Shown here one piece after another: positions 15,100 through 36,471 of a stretch of 64,000 bases of DNA. The notes beneath the pieces were generated by a model. That model saw only the letters and a list, made by a program, of their open reading frames with translations. It was not told the origin of the DNA and made no database searches. Source of the DNA: Fimbriimonadaceae bacterium. Its GTDB lineage: Bacteria > Armatimonadota > Fimbriimonadia > Fimbriimonadales > Fimbriimonadaceae. The DNA lies in assembly GCA_023957775.1 (NCBI GenBank), contig JAMLGR010000012.1, positions 1 to 64,000 of the forward strand, read 5' to 3'. The translations under genes were made by a program, and so were the position numbers. Position 1 is the stretch's first letter. Each line of letters begins with the position of its first letter.

Positions 15100-15105
15100 T
15101 TACGC

Positions 15106-15201
15106 GGTTTGTGGTTTGCGGTTTGCGGTTTGCGGTTTGTGGTTGGTGGTGGTTTGTGAACCCCTCGCCCCTCTGGGGGAGAGGGGGCAGGGGGTGAGGG
15201 G
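15106..15201. repeat. Heptamer array followed by C/G-rich inverted repeat between convergent genes
   Basis: Units of GGTTTGY (the complement of the ACCACAA family) run from 15106 to about 15140 and decay to 15158. They are followed at 15161-15201 by an inverted repeat that begins CCCCTCGCCCCTC and ends GGGGGTGAGGGG. The block separates the E1 gene from the convergent pseudopilin gene. The second part can fold and could terminate transcription from both sides. Confidence 0.7.
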
Positions 15202-15623: not shown

Positions 15624-15690
15624 GGGACGGGAATCGGGAGACGGGAATCGGGAGACGGGAATCGGGAGACGGGAATCGGGAATCGGGGGG
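15624..15690. repeat. 7-bp tandem repeat array (GGGAATC/GGGAGAC)
   Basis: Alternating heptamers GGGAATC and GGGAGAC, eight units or so, fill the space between the pseudopilin start region and the sdhC stop at 15692. An identical type of array lies at 21573-21680. Confidence 0.9.
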
Positions 15691-20646: not shown

Positions 20647-21558
20647 TCAAAGCTCTTTGTTCAGTTGCGTGCCGTCTACCTCGTCGCTCCACGCCCGATC
20701 TTGCGCTTCGTAGGCCGGGTATTCGATGAGATCGTAAAGCTCGGCCCGTGTCCGCATCGAGTCGAGGAATCCAGCTTGCGTGCCGGTCTCCAAGAGCTCC
20801 TTGTAGGCGTCCGTGACGGCCTTCAGCATGACCCGGAAAGCGGTCATCGGATAGATGACGAGATTGTACCCAAGGGACCCGAAATCCGAGAGGGTGAGAA
20901 GGGGGGTCTTCCCGAACTCCGTCATGTTCGCAAGCAGCGGCGCGGACACCCCCTTTCGGAACGCCTCGAACTCGGCCTCCGACTGCAGCCCCTCGGGAAA
21001 CACCGCGTCCGCTCCGTGGTCGACGTAGAGCTTCGCACGGTCGATCGCCGCGTCCAACCCCTCGACGCCTCGGGCGTCGGTCCGGGCCACGATGAGGAAC
21101 GCCGGATCGCGCCTCGACGCCACCGCCGCGCGCACCTTCTTGGCCATCTCGTGCGGGGCGATCACCGCCTTCCCATCGAGGTGCCCGCAGCGTTTCGGGC
21201 TGACCTGGTCCTCTAGATGGATGCCCGCCAGACCCGCGCGCTCCATCTCGCGCACCGTCCGCGCCACGTTGAGCGTCTCGCCGTAGCCCGTGTCGGCGTC
21301 CGCGATCACGGGCACCGGCGCCGCCTGGCACACGTACGCCGCCTGCTGCGCCATCTCCGTGAGCGTGAGGAGCGCGATGTCCGGCACGGCGAGCAGTGCG
21401 TTGGTCACCCCCGCGCCGCTCAGATACAGCCCCTCCGCGCCCGCCGAGTGCGCGGCCTTGGCCGTGATCGCATTGAACACGCCGGGAAGGCAAACGACGC
21501 CGTCGGCCATGCGCTCGCGCAACGCGCGTCCAGGCGATTCGGGACCTCGATGCAGCAT
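20647..21558 (-). CDS. prpB: Methylisocitrate lyase (PrpB-like)
   Basis: The protein has 303 aa. It belongs to the isocitrate lyase/PEP mutase superfamily; PrpB splits 2-methylisocitrate into pyruvate and succinate. The key motif K-R-C-G-H (QVSPKRCGHLDG) carries the catalytic cysteine, DADTGYGE binds metal, and the length matches PrpB rather than the longer isocitrate lyase. The ATG at 21558 has TATCCT six bases upstream. It leads a two-gene operon with the citrate/methylcitrate synthase. No prpD or acnD is in the window. Other superfamily members (oxaloacetate hydrolase, carboxyPEP mutase) are less likely because of KRCGH. Confidence 0.88.
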   Translation of the reverse strand: MLHRGPESPGRALRERMADGVVCLPGVFNAITAKAAHSAGAEGLYLSGAGVTNALLAVPDIALLTLTEMAQQAAYVCQAAPVPVIADADTGYGETLNVARTVREMERAGLAGIHLEDQVSPKRCGHLDGKAVIAPHEMAKKVRAAVASRRDPAFLIVARTDARGVEGLDAAIDRAKLYVDHGADAVFPEGLQSEAEFEAFRKGVSAPLLANMTEFGKTPLLTLSDFGSLGYNLVIYPMTAFRVMLKAVTDAYKELLETGTQAGFLDSMRTRAELYDLIEYPAYEAQDRAWSDEVDGTQLNKEL

Positions 21559-21572
21559 GGGGGGAGGATACC

Positions 21573-21680
21573 GGGAGACGGGAGACGGGAATCGGGAGAC
21601 GGGAATCGGGAGACGGGAGTCGGGAATCGGGAATCGGGAGACGGGAATCGGGAGACGGGAGTCGGGAATCGGGGGGGGAT
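21573..21680. repeat. 7-bp tandem repeat array (GGGAGAC/GGGAATC/GGGAGTC)
   Basis: About 15 heptamers of the form GGGARWC/GGGAGTC run without interruption between the prpB promoter and the S9 peptidase gene. This is the longest heptamer array in the window. Confidence 0.92.
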
Positions 21681-23998: not shown

Positions 23999-24070
23999 CG
24001 TTTGTCGTTTTTCGTTTTTCGTTTGTCGGGGGGAGTCCGGCGACAAACGATCAACGATCAACCACAAACA
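23999..24070. repeat. Heptamer array (CGTTTGT / ACAAACG) running into a gene's stop codon
   Basis: Units CGTTTGT, CGTTTTT, CGTTTTT, CGTTTGT are followed by a G-rich spacer and then ACAAACG, ATCAACG, ATCAACC, ACAAACA in the inverse sense, so the block can also form a hairpin. Its right half overlaps the stop and the last six codons of the methyltransferase gene at 24051. Confidence 0.8.
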
Positions 24071-25100
24071 AGGTTTGCGAGACGCCCCACTCCTGGCCCT
24101 TGTCCAGCCCGAACATCTCCGCGCAGGCCATGAAGAAGATGCGCCACCGTTGGAGCCAGCGGGCCGCCTCTTCCGCGCCGTAGTGGTCGGCGAGGATTGC
24201 CAAGGCCTCGTCGCGCCGGGCGTCGAGCCGTTCCAACCATGCGTTGGACGTCTTCTCGTAGTGCGTGCCGTCCCACTCCCAGCGGTCCACCAGCGCCAAC
24301 GCGTCTTGGAACGAAGGCAGGAGGTCGGTGCTGGGCATGATCCCGCCGGTGAAGAAGTGCCGGCCCATCCAGTTGCCCGACCCCTCGGTGTCGAACGTGT
24401 AGGGGAACCGGGCGTGCCGGAAGACGTGGAAGAAGGCGAGCCCCTCCGGCGCGAGCCAACCGGCCATGCGCTCGAAGAGCACCGGGTGGTTGCGCACGTG
24501 TTCGAGCATCTCGATCGAGACGATCCTATCGAACGTCGCTCCCGGCTCGAAAGTGTTCACGTCCGCGGTGCGGATCTCCAGGTTCTGCAATCCCCGGCGC
24601 CGGGCCTCGTCGAGGATGAAACCGCGCTGGGGCGCCGAGTTGGACACGCCTACGATGGACGCCCCCGGGAACCGCTCCGCCAAGTAGAGGCTCAGGGAAC
24701 CCCACCCGCACCCGAGGTCGAGGACGCGCTGGCCGTCCTCGATGCGCGCCCGCTCCGCGTACGTCGCCAGAGCGCGCTCCTCCGCTTCGGCAAGGGTCGC
24801 CACGCCGGGAGCCCATTCGCAGCACGAGTATTTGCGCCTCGGGCCCAACACCAGCTCGAAGAAGCGGGGCGGAAGCTCGTAGTGCTGGGCGTTGGCCTCC
24901 TCGGTGGCCTCGGCGATGGGGGCGTCCTCCAGAGCGCGGACGAACGCCGACAGCGCGGCCTCCTCCGAGCCGTCGCACGCGCGTTCGACGGCGCGGAGGC
25001 GGTTGCGCGAAGCCGAGCGGATCGCGGCGCGGATCACGCTGTCCGGAACGAGCGCACGCTCGGCGAGCGCGAGGCCTGCGGAAACGACGAGTTCAGCCAT
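24051..25100 (-). CDS. CFA-synthase-like SAM methyltransferase (second copy in operon)
   Basis: The protein has 349 aa. It is a class I SAM methyltransferase of the cyclopropane-fatty-acyl-phospholipid synthase superfamily: HYELPPRFFELVLGPRRKYSCCEW (cut here only as a landmark at about 90-113), SAM motif LDLGCGWGSLSLYLAE, and IVSIEMLEHV. It lacks the usual N-terminal lipid-binding domain of full CFA synthase and has its own alpha-helical start. ATG 25100 has GGAGG seven bases upstream. It is the last gene of a six-gene operon and overlaps the DUF1295 gene by eight bases. It probably methylates an unsaturated fatty acyl chain; the product is unknown. The last codons lie in a heptamer repeat. 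Confidence 0.85.
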   Translation of the reverse strand: MAELVVSAGLALAERALVPDSVIRAAIRSASRNRLRAVERACDGSEEAALSAFVRALEDAPIAEATEEANAQHYELPPRFFELVLGPRRKYSCCEWAPGVATLAEAEERALATYAERARIEDGQRVLDLGCGWGSLSLYLAERFPGASIVGVSNSAPQRGFILDEARRRGLQNLEIRTADVNTFEPGATFDRIVSIEMLEHVRNHPVLFERMAGWLAPEGLAFFHVFRHARFPYTFDTEGSGNWMGRHFFTGGIMPSTDLLPSFQDALALVDRWEWDGTHYEKTSNAWLERLDARRDEALAILADHYGAEEAARWLQRWRIFFMACAEMFGLDKGQEWGVSQTLFVVDR

Positions 25101-25884
25101 GGGTTGCCTCCTTGGGCGGGAGCGGGATGAAGGGGGACGTGGTGCGCTGGTATTCGCGGTAGGCATCGCCCCGAGAGAGAAGGGAGCGGGCTTCCGTGAG
25201 CGGGATCCCCGTCACCTTGGTGAGGAAGAGGAGCATCACGAGCATGCCCGCGACGGCGAGCCACACCAGCGGTCCGCCCATCGCCAGCAGCACGTAGCCG
25301 CCCCAGTGCACCCACTCGAAGAAGTAGTTGGGGTGGCGCGACCACGCCCACATGCCATGGCTGCACACCTTGCCCTTGTTGTCCGGATCGGATCGGAACG
25401 CCTGCAATTGACGGTCGGCGATGCTCTCGCCGGTCACACCCAGAAGCCAGACCCCGATCCCGAGAACGTCCAGAAGCGAAGGCGATGGAGATGCGTTCGA
25501 AGCCGCGGCGAGCATGGGCAGGGCGAACATCACCGCCCAAAACGCCTGGATCTGGAAGAAGCCGAACATGAGCGGCTGGGTCTTGGGCCCCCACTTCTCG
25601 CGCAGCATGCGGTAGCGTCCGTCTTCTTCCTCGCCGGAAACGCGCACGAACAGCATCCCGCCCAAACGGAAGGCCCAGACGCCCGCGAGCACCGCCGTGA
25701 TCAAGCGGCGGGTCGGATCGCCGTCCGCGACCGCGGCGAACCAGAGAGCGCACAAGCCGGTTCCGAAGCTCCACGCGACGTCCACGATCCCGGCGTTGTG
25801 CCGGCGGTACTGGACCCACCAAAGGCCGCCCATCATCGCGGCCATCGCGCACCAAGCGATGCCGATGGCTTGCCACACGCTCAT
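25093..25884 (-). CDS. DUF1295 membrane protein (steroid reductase/ICMT-like)
   Basis: The protein has 263 aa and six or seven membrane spans. DUF1295 proteins are related to 3-oxo-5-alpha-steroid 4-dehydrogenases and isoprenylcysteine methyltransferases. The C-terminal half has the typical GMWAWSRHPNYFFEWVHWGG block (residues near 190-210) and ends with EYQRTTSPFIPLPP. It is often found beside CFA-type methyltransferase and DUF1365 genes, which fits a lipid reductase role; that function is inferred. Its ATG overlaps the stop of the selenoprotein-like gene (ATGA). The longer 506-residue frame upstream is a shadow of that gene and of the next CFA gene. Confidence 0.87.
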   Translation of the reverse strand: MSVWQAIGIAWCAMAAMMGGLWWVQYRRHNAGIVDVAWSFGTGLCALWFAAVADGDPTRRLITAVLAGVWAFRLGGMLFVRVSGEEEDGRYRMLREKWGPKTQPLMFGFFQIQAFWAVMFALPMLAAASNASPSPSLLDVLGIGVWLLGVTGESIADRQLQAFRSDPDNKGKVCSHGMWAWSRHPNYFFEWVHWGGYVLLAMGGPLVWLAVAGMLVMLLFLTKVTGIPLTEARSLLSRGDAYREYQRTTSPFIPLPPKEATHG

Positions 25885-26384
25885 CGGGAGCCCTCCCATC
25901 GAGCCAGGGCCAGGTAGTCGGGAACCTCGGACGGGTCCTTGCTGCGGTGCGCCTTCACCAGTTCGCCGTCCACGACGAGAAACACCCCCGGCAGTTGGGA
26001 CGCGTCCCCCTCCGTCGGACCCTGGCGGAACCCTCTGCCGAACGCGCGCGCCGCGCCCAACCACATCTTGGGACCGAGCAGAGCGCCCAACGACCCTCGC
26101 TGCAGATCCAGAGCCTGGTACAGCTTCCGCTCGGGATCGGCGAAACGGGGCACGTCCCCAACGCCGAACTCCTCGAAGAACGGTGCGGCTTTCTCCTCGG
26201 TGCTCATATGGACGAACGCCACCTGCGTTCCCATCCGCTCGATCTCTCCGCGCAGCCGCGCCACGTCGGAGACCATCTCGCGGCAGAAGATTCACCCAAA
26301 GTGCCGAATCACCACCAACAGCAGGGGTTTCTCCCGCGAGAGCAACGCGATCGCGTCCCACTGGGGGAGTTCGAGAAGGGTCAT
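25881..26384 (-). CDS. Peroxiredoxin-like (AhpC/TSA-type) protein, probable selenoprotein read through TGA at 26292-26294
   Basis: Read as one frame with TGA as selenocysteine, this is 167 aa. It starts at ATG 26384 (ATGA overlap with the CFA gene; another in-frame ATG is at 26390). Residues 21-35 read LLLVVIRHFG-U-IFCR, so U31 falls where relatives carry the peroxidatic cysteine of R-H-F-G-C-x-F-C-R-E, giving a U-x-x-C34 redox motif. The family fold continues intact after it: VAFVHMSTEEKAAPFF, GVGDVPRFADPERKLYQAL, QLPGVFLVVDGELV and PDYLALA. A plain gene call would start at ATG 26276 (131 aa) and lose the active site. Role: thiol- or peroxide-dependent redox within a lipid-modifying operon. 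Alternative: a Cys-to-stop mutation, thus a pseudogene. Confidence 0.82.
26256..26294 (-). other. In-frame UGA and candidate bacterial SECIS hairpin
   Basis: UGA occupies 26294-26292 (minus strand). Sixteen bases further is the apical loop UGG (26275-26273), closed by GAGA (26279-26276) and UCUC (26272-26269). A lower helix CCGC (26283-26280) with GCGG (26259-26256) can close the structure around a one-sided bulge. Distance to the loop, the four-base upper stem and a G in the first two loop positions agree with what is known of bacterial SECIS elements. The fold was made by eye and not by energy calculation. Confidence 0.55.
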
Positions 26385-27631
26385 CGCCATACGGTCTCCT
26401 TCGAAGCCAGCTCTCCGCGCGGCACCGCGCCGGACCACCTGGGTTTGGCGAGCACCATCTGGACGTCGCCCACGTGCCGCTCGGCGAAACCCGCCTCGCA
26501 GTACCGCAGGTAGAACTCCCACAGTCGGAGGAGGCGCTCCGGGTAACCGAGCGCGCGCGCCTCTTCCCTGCGCGCAACGAACCGCTCCCGCCACAGGCGG
26601 AGGGTGGTGGCATAGTGCGGACCGATCTCCTCGAGGTCCACCAGCCGAAGGTCCGAGGCGCGCGTCATCGCCTGCTGCATCGCCGTCCTCGAAGGGCAGC
26701 AGCTGCCCGGGAAGATGACGTGGCGGATGAAGTCGACGGAGCGCACGTACTGGGCGTAACGCTGGTCCGGCATCGTGATCGCCTGCACGGCCATGGCGCC
26801 CTGGGGCCGCAGCAGCTCCGCACACTTGGCGAAGAAACGTGGGAGGTTCTCGTGGCCAACGGCCTCGATCATCTCGATCGACACGATCCGGTCGAACTTG
26901 CCCTGAAGGTCGCGGTAATCCTTGAGGAGCACCTCCACCCGGTCCTGAAGTCCGGCCTCCTGGATGCGGCTGCTGGCCAGCGCGTGCTGTTGGCGCGAGA
27001 TCGTCGTAGTCGTGACGCGGCACCCGAACTCCTTGGCGGCCATCAGCGCGAAGCTCCCCCACCCGCTTCCGATTTCGAGCACGTGGTGGCCCGGGTTGAG
27101 TTCGAGCTTGCGGCAAAGGCGGCGGAGCTTGGCTTCGGACGCTTGCTCGAGCGTGGCCTCGGGGTGCTCGAAGAACCCGCACGAGTACGTCATGCTCTCG
27201 TCGAGGAACAGCGAGAAGAACTCGTTCCCGAGATCGTAGTGCGCGTGGATGTTCGCGCGGCTGTTGGCCTTCGTGTTGCGCCGCCCGAGGTGGCGCAGCA
27301 GGTTGGGCAGCGACATCAGCCAGGCGAGGCGGCGCTCCAGGGGACTCTCATGGCCGATGCGCCGCACCAGGATCTGGAACAAGGCCGTGAGGTCGTCGCT
27401 GTCCCAGGTGCCGTCTCCGTACGCTTGCGACGCCCCGATCGAACCGCGAAACGCAAGCTGGCGGTACGTGGCCGGATCGTGGACCACGAGCTGGGCGCGC
27501 AGGGGGCGGCTGGGATCGACCGCACCGAGCCGAAGCTCTCGATGCGGGTCTTTCAGGAGGATTTCCCCTCCCTGCAGCCGATCGAGGGCGGCGATCACGG
27601 CTCGGCGACACAGAGCATCGAGTGGTTTCAT
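26381..27631 (-). CDS. Cyclopropane-fatty-acyl-phospholipid synthase family methyltransferase
   Basis: The protein has 416 aa, full length for the CFA synthase family. An N-terminal lipid-binding domain (about 1-130, SCP2-like, with SQAYGDGTWDSDDLTALF) precedes the methyltransferase domain: HYDLGNEFFSLFLDESMTYS, SAM motif VLEIGSGWGSFALMAAKEFG, IVSIEMIEAVGHE and the C-terminal HYATTLRLWRERF. Members transfer a methylene or methyl group from SAM to the double bond of membrane acyl chains. Linked to DUF1365 and a flavin oxidase, it may make a methyl-branched or furan-type product instead of a plain cyclopropane ring. ATGA overlaps join it to genes on both sides. Confidence 0.92.
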   Translation of the reverse strand: MKPLDALCRRAVIAALDRLQGGEILLKDPHRELRLGAVDPSRPLRAQLVVHDPATYRQLAFRGSIGASQAYGDGTWDSDDLTALFQILVRRIGHESPLERRLAWLMSLPNLLRHLGRRNTKANSRANIHAHYDLGNEFFSLFLDESMTYSCGFFEHPEATLEQASEAKLRRLCRKLELNPGHHVLEIGSGWGSFALMAAKEFGCRVTTTTISRQQHALASSRIQEAGLQDRVEVLLKDYRDLQGKFDRIVSIEMIEAVGHENLPRFFAKCAELLRPQGAMAVQAITMPDQRYAQYVRSVDFIRHVIFPGSCCPSRTAMQQAMTRASDLRLVDLEEIGPHYATTLRLWRERFVARREEARALGYPERLLRLWEFYLRYCEAGFAERHVGDVQMVLAKPRWSGAVPRGELASKETVWR

Positions 27632-28383
27632 GGTTGCATCTCGGGCAGATGGTTCTTGGAGGGATGGCGCTGGTAGGGAACGCCCTTGCGCCACAGCTTG
27701 AGCGCTTGGAAATAGATGCCCGCGATCACGCGGTGCGTCATCAGCGGGTGACGCCAGGACAGCCGCCGCCACTCGCTTGCGGTGAGCGGGCGGCGACGCA
27801 TGACGAGCGTGGCGTCCAGGACTTTGTCGTCGCGCTCGAAGCTCTCCATGTGCACGACCAGGTTCTCGCCGGGAGGCTCGAAGCGCCATGAGTAGCGCTG
27901 GTCCATCCCCATGAAGGGCGACACGTGGAACTCCTTGCTGAACCGGCCGAGACCCTCTTCGGAGCTGCGCTGCACGTAGCAGTGGGTCTCGCCCCACGGC
28001 GTGTTGTGCACCTCGCTCACGATGGCCTCCACGCGCGTGTCGGCCTCGTCGAAGCAGTAGAGGAAGGAGACGGGATTGAACCGGAAACCCGCGGTGCGCG
28101 GGTGGGTGAGCATCCGTACCGGACCCAGGTTCTCCAGCCCAAGCCGCTCGGCCGCGAGCGCGCGGGCCGCGTGGTCCAAGCGCACTCCGGGTTCGCCGAA
28201 GTGCTCCTCCCGGCGAATGCCGCGGGCGAGCTTCTTCAACAGAGGCTCCTTCTGGACCGAGCCGTCGAGGGGCCACAACTCCTCGAGGTCCACGTAAGCC
28301 ATGTGGAGGTCGTAGCGAAACGCGTGGGGACGGGGCGCGAAGCGCCGGTGGCGCACCCAGCCGTCGTAGAAGGCGCTCTTCAT
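27628..28383 (-). CDS. DUF1365 family protein
   Basis: The protein has 251 aa and begins MKSAFYDGWVRHRRFAPRPHAFRYDL, the family's conserved start (H-R-R-x-x-P-x-x-H-x-F). FRFNPVSFLYCFD and the EVHNTPWGETHCYV block follow, all typical of DUF1365. The function is not established; the family is almost always coded next to a flavin amine-oxidase-like gene and a CFA synthase, as here, and belongs to light- or singlet-oxygen-induced lipid-modification gene sets in proteobacteria. It overlaps both neighbours by ATGA, so it is cotranslated. Confidence 0.93.
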   Translation of the reverse strand: MKSAFYDGWVRHRRFAPRPHAFRYDLHMAYVDLEELWPLDGSVQKEPLLKKLARGIRREEHFGEPGVRLDHAARALAAERLGLENLGPVRMLTHPRTAGFRFNPVSFLYCFDEADTRVEAIVSEVHNTPWGETHCYVQRSSEEGLGRFSKEFHVSPFMGMDQRYSWRFEPPGENLVVHMESFERDDKVLDATLVMRRRPLTASEWRRLSWRHPLMTHRVIAGIYFQALKLWRKGVPYQRHPSKNHLPEMQP

Positions 28384-29615
28384 GCCTTGCCTCCGAACGC
28401 AGCGGCGACCTCGAGCGCGCTCCGGACCCCGTCCTCGTGGAAGCCGTAGCCCCAGTACGCCCCGCAATACGAGATGCGGTTGTGGCGGAGCATCGAGGCG
28501 CGGCGCTCTCGCGCGGCCATCCCTTCGACGGTGGTCACGGGGTGGTGGTACGTGAAGCGGCGCAGCACCTTTTCGGGTGCGATTCCCCGCTCGTTGAGCG
28601 AGACGCAAAACGTGCTCGTCGAGCGAAGCGACTGCAGCAGGTTCATATGGTAGGTTACGGCGGCGGGGGCATCGGGTTGGGTTCCCGCGTGGTAGTTCCA
28701 ACTCGCCCAAGCCGCTTTCGAGCGCGGCAGGACCGAGGTGTCGGTGTGCAGCACGACGTCGTTCGGCTGGTACGGGAAAGCGCTCAGCGCGGCGCACTCC
28801 GAGTCCGTAGGGTCTGTGAGCGCGTCCAGCGCCTGATCGGCGTGGCAGGCGAACACCAACTCGTCGAATCGCTCTGCGCCTCGAGTCGAGACGACCTCGA
28901 CGCCGTCCTGTGTGCGCCTCACGGCGTGCACGGGCGAGCTTGTCCGAAACTCGACGCCGAGCCCCTTCAGAAGTTTGTCCACGTAGCGTTGGGACCCTCC
29001 CCGAACGACCTCCCACTGGGGCCGGTCCTCGAACTGCAGCATGCCGTGGGCCTGGAGGAAGCCGGCGACGAACCGGATGGGAAAGGCGCCAAAAAGGGAT
29101 CCGGGACAGGACCAGAGCGCCGACCCAAGCGGCTGCAAGAACCGTTCGGCAAACTCGCGAGACCTTCCGCGGGATTGGACATAGGCGTCGACGGTCAGGC
29201 TGGCGGGCGCCTGGGCCAGCTCCTCGCCATCCCTGAAGAAACCGCGGATGTCCGCCAGCATCCTCCAGTGGCCGGGCTTGAGGACGCTGGCTGGCTGGGC
29301 GAAGAGCGTGCGGGGGCCCCGACCCGCATACTCGATGCCCGAGCGGTCGCACCGAACCCCGAACGACATGTCCGTCGGCTGGGTCTCGACGCCCAACTCG
29401 TCGAGCAGGGCGGAGAAGAGGGGGTAGTTGCGCCGGTTGAAGACGATGAAGCCCGTGTCCACCTGGAACTCCGACCGTCCATCGCTCACCGTGACAGTGG
29501 CGACATGTCCCCCGACCTTCGGGGCCGCTTCAAACAGGGTCACGCGGTGCTGGCGCGAAAGGGCCCGGGCTGCCACCAGCCCCGAGACGCCCCCACCCAC
29601 CACCGCGATGTGCAT
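28380..29615 (-). CDS. NAD(P)/FAD-dependent flavin oxidase, amine-oxidase/desaturase type
   Basis: The protein has 411 aa. It starts MHIAVVGGGVSGLVAARALS, the Rossmann FAD-binding motif (G-x-G-x-x-G at about 7-12), with E in LFEAAPKVGGH; the family is that of phytoene-desaturase/amine-oxidase flavoproteins found beside DUF1365 and CFA genes. In Rhodobacter a related flavoprotein takes part in making methylated furan fatty acids, so a desaturase or oxidase acting on a methylated acyl chain is plausible (inference). It is the first gene of the operon. The ATG at 29615 is only eight bases from a perfect TATAAT, so the message is practically leaderless. Confidence 0.9.
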   Translation of the reverse strand: MHIAVVGGGVSGLVAARALSRQHRVTLFEAAPKVGGHVATVTVSDGRSEFQVDTGFIVFNRRNYPLFSALLDELGVETQPTDMSFGVRCDRSGIEYAGRGPRTLFAQPASVLKPGHWRMLADIRGFFRDGEELAQAPASLTVDAYVQSRGRSREFAERFLQPLGSALWSCPGSLFGAFPIRFVAGFLQAHGMLQFEDRPQWEVVRGGSQRYVDKLLKGLGVEFRTSSPVHAVRRTQDGVEVVSTRGAERFDELVFACHADQALDALTDPTDSECAALSAFPYQPNDVVLHTDTSVLPRSKAAWASWNYHAGTQPDAPAAVTYHMNLLQSLRSTSTFCVSLNERGIAPEKVLRRFTYHHPVTTVEGMAARERRASMLRHNRISYCGAYWGYGFHEDGVRSALEVAAAFGGKA

Positions 29616-36411: not shown

Positions 36412-36471
36412 CAAGGCCCAAGCCAAGGCCTAAGGCCCAAGGCCCAAGGCCTAAGGCCCAAGGCCTAACCC
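36412..36471. repeat. 7-bp tandem repeat array (AAGGCCC/AAGGCCT)
   Basis: Seven heptamers AAGGCCY run from 36413 to 36466, with one unit shortened by two bases (36420-36424). The array fills the gap between two convergent genes and covers the stop codon of the GDSL gene (36465-36467). Confidence 0.9.

Follow-up and report, generated by a model that had tools for sequence, protein, structure and literature searches.

A probable UxxC selenoprotein of the SelL-related family in a lipid-modification operon of a Fimbriimonadaceae bacterium

Introduction

In selenoprotein L (SelL), a peroxiredoxin-like selenoprotein, the pair of selenocysteine (Sec) residues is arranged as UxxU. SelL carries two Sec residues (PMC3473315) and is counted among the families of both prokaryotes and eukaryotes (PMC2398784). 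In animals, the Sec forms of the prostamide/prostaglandin F synthase (PGFS) branch are known as SelU; the SelU3 group corresponds to prFsy, which reduces prostamide H2, and Sec-containing SelU3 occurs in invertebrates (PMC3473315). Bacterial peroxiredoxin-like selenoproteins with a UxxC pair and Cys homologues have been reported from the Sargasso Sea and GOS sets (PMC1088965, PMC2398784). Moreover, the cd02970/PF13911 AhpC/TSA family figures in lists of selenoprotein families (PMC13188914, PMC9312934), its form being given as UxxS in a 2026 inventory of selenoproteins that mentions neither a UxxC form nor Armatimonadota (PMC13188914), and nothing on the SelL-related family was found in a planctomycete selenoprotein paper. 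As for lipid modification, the furan-fatty-acid genes ufaM/ufaD/ufaO of Rhodobacter sphaeroides supply a fatty-acyl methylase together with an NAD/FAD-binding flavin desaturase for membrane lipids and are raised in cells without the anti-sigma factor ChrR, and no Sec enzyme is seen alongside them in the available part of that source (PMC7380195).

The gene described here lies in a window of 64,000 nucleotides, the whole stretch of DNA that was analysed, and resembles each of these systems in part. With the Sargasso Sea and GOS proteins it shares the UxxC pair and the existence of Cys homologues. Like SelL, it would code for a peroxiredoxin-like selenoprotein, but with one Sec (UxxC, from a single in-frame TGA) in place of two. 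It matches the cd02970 entry of the 2026 inventory as a PF13911 selenoprotein, although the pair is UxxS there and UxxC here. SelU3/PRXL2B (PGFS) is closest in sequence and fold, whereas the identity is only ~20%, the host is bacterial, and no prostanoids are expected. With the family NF040769 it has in common the thioredoxin fold and the RHFG-[CU]-x-F-C-R motif, the first position of the pair being Sec here and Cys in 42 of 53 relatives. The likeness to ufaM/ufaD/ufaO, namely a methylase and a flavoprotein for membrane lipids, is a resemblance at the level of domains only. The enzyme family is already known; for its occurrence in this lineage and in this operon no earlier description was found in the literature searched.

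The gene, its in-frame TGA and its operon

The SelL-related gene occupies 25881..26390 of the minus strand, from an ATG at 26390 (or 26384) to the TGA stop at 25883-25881, and has 169 residues. The ATG at 26390 lies a few bases 3' of AAGGAGA (26395..26401, minus strand), by its sequence a likely ribosome-binding site, and is a start as good as or better than 26384; counted from 26390, the putative Sec is residue 33. The minus-strand frame from 26384 to 25881 reads MTLLEL...VVIRHFG-TGA-IFCREMVSD...WEGSR-TGA, and its sole internal stop is the TGA at 26294-26292, which falls exactly on the first Cys of the RHFG-C-x-F-C-R motif, while frame translation and alignment assign the TGC at 26283..26285 to the partner Cys36, giving a U33/C36 redox pair of the U-x-x-C type. 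Residue 33 is very probably selenocysteine read from UGA and the gene that of a 169-residue selenoprotein. The initial annotation had proposed just this, and while its single in-frame TGA and the replacement of the first Cys are confirmed by the reading of the frame, its selenoprotein interpretation is supported by the Sec machinery and by relatives with either Cys or TGA at the site. It had also predicted that gene callers would begin at the ATG at 26276, which is indeed the next one after the TGA; automatic callers would split the gene and lose the active site, and the operon would seem to hold a truncated protein.

All genes of the operon are on the minus strand, in the order amine-oxidase-like flavoprotein, DUF1365, cyclopropane-fatty-acyl-phospholipid-synthase (CFA synthase), SelL-related gene, DUF1295, and second CFA-like methyltransferase. 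Specifically, an FAD/NAD-binding amine-oxidase-like oxidoreductase (28380..29615; open reading frame and domain search) precedes a DUF1365 protein (27628..28383) that overlaps its stop, and the CFA-type methyltransferase (26381..27631) overlaps both the DUF1365 stop and the SelL-related start. Downstream, a DUF1295/steroid 5-alpha-reductase-like membrane protein (25093..25884) is followed by the second CFA-synthase-like methyltransferase (24051..25166; open reading frame and domain search). Since the SelL-related gene overlaps both of its neighbours, by 10 bases with the upstream CFA-synthase gene and through an ATGA with the ATG of the downstream DUF1295 gene, it belongs to a closely packed operon, and the domains of the neighbouring genes bear out the earlier suggestion that this operon serves lipid modification.

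Protein family, fold and proposed role

The protein scores 147.7 bits against NCBIfam NF040769, 'SelL-related redox protein' (cut-off 120), and 49.5 bits against Pfam PF13911, AhpC-TSA_2 (gathering score 27). Conversely, the classical AhpC-TSA family PF00578 yields 23.1 bits, below its gathering score of 26, and the motif is UxxC instead of the peroxidatic TxxC/U. The AhpC/TSA-type label given by the initial annotation therefore holds for the AhpC-TSA_2 (PRXL2)/SelL-related branch and not for classical AhpC. In an AlphaFold2 model (mean pLDDT 95.2) the first strand is followed by a long helix with residue 33 at its beginning, which would place this residue as in thioredoxin-fold redox enzymes. 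Human PGFS is nearest among solved proteins in sequence (E = 1.4e-6, with its C44/C47 aligned to C33/C36) and is also the top structural match of the model.

According to the mechanism proposed here, SelB and Sec-tRNA would read the UGA, helped by a downstream hairpin at about 20-46 nt; Sec33 would then attack the oxidised substrate through its selenol, Cys36 would resolve the resulting species as a selenenylsulfide, and the enzyme would be re-reduced by a donor of the thioredoxin type. The likeliest substrate would be a lipid hydroperoxide, an endoperoxide or another oxidised acyl chain that is made or protected by the operon, since PGFS, the nearest solved enzyme, reduces lipid endoperoxides by means of the same CxxC pair and the gene belongs to an operon of fatty-acid methylation and oxidation. 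Because the substrate step depends on the kinship with PGFS and on the operon, it is the least certain of the series, and reduction of lipid-derived peroxides by a selenol, although the most likely role, has about an even chance of being the true one. More tentatively, and with the balance of probability against it, the protein may be a Sec-based bacterial counterpart of PGFS dedicated, within a membrane-lipid operon, to the reduction of methyl- or cyclopropane fatty acyl chains that have been oxidised to hydroperoxides or endoperoxides. The PGFS-like fold and the lipid operon together suggest a testable substrate for the bacterial SelL-related family.

The distribution of the gene bears on this role in two ways. 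It would be quite conceivable, if somewhat short of an even chance, that the selenoprotein is a general thiol-disulfide oxidoreductase or peroxiredoxin without a lipid substrate and that it sits in the operon by chance: the majority of Sec and Cys relatives are located elsewhere in their genomes, one genome (G034, locus L066) has the operon neighbours without the SelL-related gene between CFA synthase and DUF1295, and the structural matches of the model include ResA/TlpA and BCP/Prx proteins. However, the same gene order, with a Cys version, is found again in G059 and in the named metagenome-assembled genomes (MAGs) ACE_ARM7 and ACE_ARM8 (one genus), a further genome with a Cys version (G009) has the genes from DUF1365 through the second methyltransferase within the fetched flank, and the best match by both sequence and structure is a lipid-endoperoxide reductase. 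The SelL-related gene is a recurrent but optional member of the operon, and its tie to lipids is not strict, given the operon that lacks it in G034 and the nearest Sec relative (G015), whose gene lies outside such a lipid operon.

Selenocysteine and cysteine among the relatives

A homologue search covering 101 relatives and the GTDB species set gave 53 distinct homologues in which the codon at the Sec column could be read. It is TGA in 11 and TGC/TGT in 42, never TAA or TAG, so that relatives have only Cys codons or TGA at the site and no random stops; two more genes of the family with one internal TGA (G120, G121) came from a wider family search outside this codon-by-codon count. On either side of the TGA, GC3 is 0.84, indicating unchanged coding constraint, and every comparison with the nearest relatives has more differences at the third codon position than at the first and second. 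The stop in the residue-33 column is not a matter of chance, because it is always TGA in the 11 of 53 relatives that have one and the coding constraint is the same on both sides.

These data also weigh on the possibility that a TGC was misread as TGA in sequencing or assembly, or that a fresh nonsense mutation has occurred, leaving an ordinary Cys enzyme or a pseudogene. The organism is apparently represented by one assembly and the nearest relative is just 48% identical, which leaves some room for such an error, but TGA is found in the same column of 10 other divergent relatives, the coding signal continues unchanged past it, the Sec machinery of the genome is complete, and the downstream hairpin is stronger than synonymous recodings predict; the error or mutation is accordingly very improbable. 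Even less credit can be given to the UGA as a true stop, whereby a 32-residue peptide would be followed by a restart at ATG 26276 and a truncated protein lacking the active site, perhaps for regulation or decay. The ATG at 26276 does open a frame of 131 amino acids; however, R29, C/U33, F35, C36 and D85 are invariant in a 38-sequence alignment, which means that a shortened protein would be without the catalytic motif (R29, C33, F35 and C36), and the upstream frame is conserved and overlaps the CFA gene. The decoding of UGA as Cys or Trp through an altered genetic code or a different suppressor tRNA is the remotest of the explanations, as nothing besides the in-frame UGA itself was found in its favour, UGA is the normal terminator of the SelL-related gene and its neighbours, and a canonical tRNA-Sec is present with SelA, SelB and SelD.

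Returning to selenocysteine, all 11 genomes with TGA have SelB above the cut-off and a strong tRNA-Sec. Among the 39 genomes that bear a homologue, SelB exceeds the cut-off in 24, and TGA occurs in 11 of these 24 versus none of the other 15 (hypergeometric P = 0.0015, the genomes being counted as if unrelated). Mapped on a maximum-likelihood protein tree, the Sec/Cys label changes 11 times, and at least 7 of the changes are forced by well-supported branches. As far as can be judged from the encoded residues, this shows that sulfur and selenium readily swap in the SelL-related protein. The named genomes closest to the window are MAGs of the Fimbriimonadaceae (Armatimonadota); this, together with the kinship of the source genome to G059, which matches ACE_ARM8, would place the source genome in that family too. 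A protein family of the Fimbriimonadaceae in which Sec and Cys have switched at least 7 times offers a good natural system for studying the reasons and the timing of exchanges between sulfur and selenium in bacteria. Separately, Ala takes the place of the second Cys in a Sec homologue with FG-U-LFA-R (L051, genome G039) and in a Cys homologue with CG-C-LFA-K (L031, genome G013), so a single-residue form of the enzyme, Sec-only or Cys-only, exists.

Selenocysteine machinery and SECIS candidates

Profile searches of the source genome, which spans 3.5 Mb in 27 contigs and is 96.6% complete, identify SelA (437 bits), SelB (365.5 bits) and SelD (350 bits). A tRNA-Sec whose anticodon is TCA scores 76.5 bits and was also found by ARAGORN. 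In the selD gene (G000:C4:95494-96399, L036) itself, the catalytic loop contains an in-frame TGA (DCAG-U-ATKLG). Moreover, a TlpA/thioredoxin-like gene and a thioredoxin-like gene have in-frame TGA codons as WUGPC and WUGFC, respectively, and are probable further selenoprotein genes of the genome; the two loci lie outside the window, at G000:C3:244400-245400 (L085) and G000:C5:151400-152500 (L086). Together with the SelL-related gene, selD and the two thioredoxin-like genes make four independent genes with UGA at the expected redox Cys/Sec position. The SelW/Rdx family is absent from the source genome, an Rfam search of the selA locus gave no match, and neither did a search of plasmids.

Candidate SECIS elements were sought with a simple model that required a stem of 4 or more pairs and a loop of 3-8 nt lying 14-36 nt after UGA, with G as one of the first two loop bases; these limits follow general knowledge of the bacterial consensus. 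Since plain folding z-scores proved uninformative in this GC-rich sequence, hairpins were compared with synonymous recodings, with the Cys relatives as control. The best SECIS-like hairpin, CUCCG-(A)-CGUGGC-GCG-GCUGCG-CGGAG (26246..26271, minus strand), has its loop starting 33 nt after UGA and a folding energy of -14.5 kcal/mol, and its 24-nt core (-11.9 kcal/mol) is equalled by 0.5% of synonymous recodings (rank 0.005). The initial annotation had instead favoured GAGA-UGG-UCUC (26269..26279, minus strand), which does begin 13 nt after UGA but is weak (-4.4 kcal/mol over a 19-nt stretch with two extra pairs) and falls outside the minimum-energy fold; it was set aside as a SECIS, the hairpin at 26271-26246 being stronger, better placed and the more likely candidate.

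The same contrast appears across the family. Hairpin strength has a median of -9.0 kcal/mol in TGA genes versus -3.9 in Cys genes (p = 5e-5), and the median rank among synonymous recodings is 0.07 versus 0.49 (p = 2e-4). In 8 of the 10 other TGA genes, a hairpin with an AGUU loop occurs ~26 nt after UGA, and the codons at this site (mostly GCG CAG TTG CGC) are uniform in TGA genes but varied in Cys relatives with the same residues. The gene's own hairpin differs from this common one, and dinucleotide-shuffled versions of the whole region 3' of UGA fold just as well (z from about -0.3 to 0.1), for which reasons its SECIS is a candidate only. In the closest Sec relative, G015, a stem folds over the stretch that matches 26271-26246.

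As a side observation, the UGA of selD is followed by a strong hairpin, UGGCGGAG-GUU-CUCCGCCA, with the loop beginning ~34 nt after that codon. Lastly, the window holds several separate short arrays with a 7-base period (21572-21673, 15626-15687, 2161-2191, 15104-15144 and 36412-36465) built from different units (CGGGAAT/CGGGAGT, ACCACAA, GCGGTTT and CAAGGCC), and the array at 21572-21673 adjoins a gene of the PEP-mutase/isocitrate-lyase family (20647-21558).
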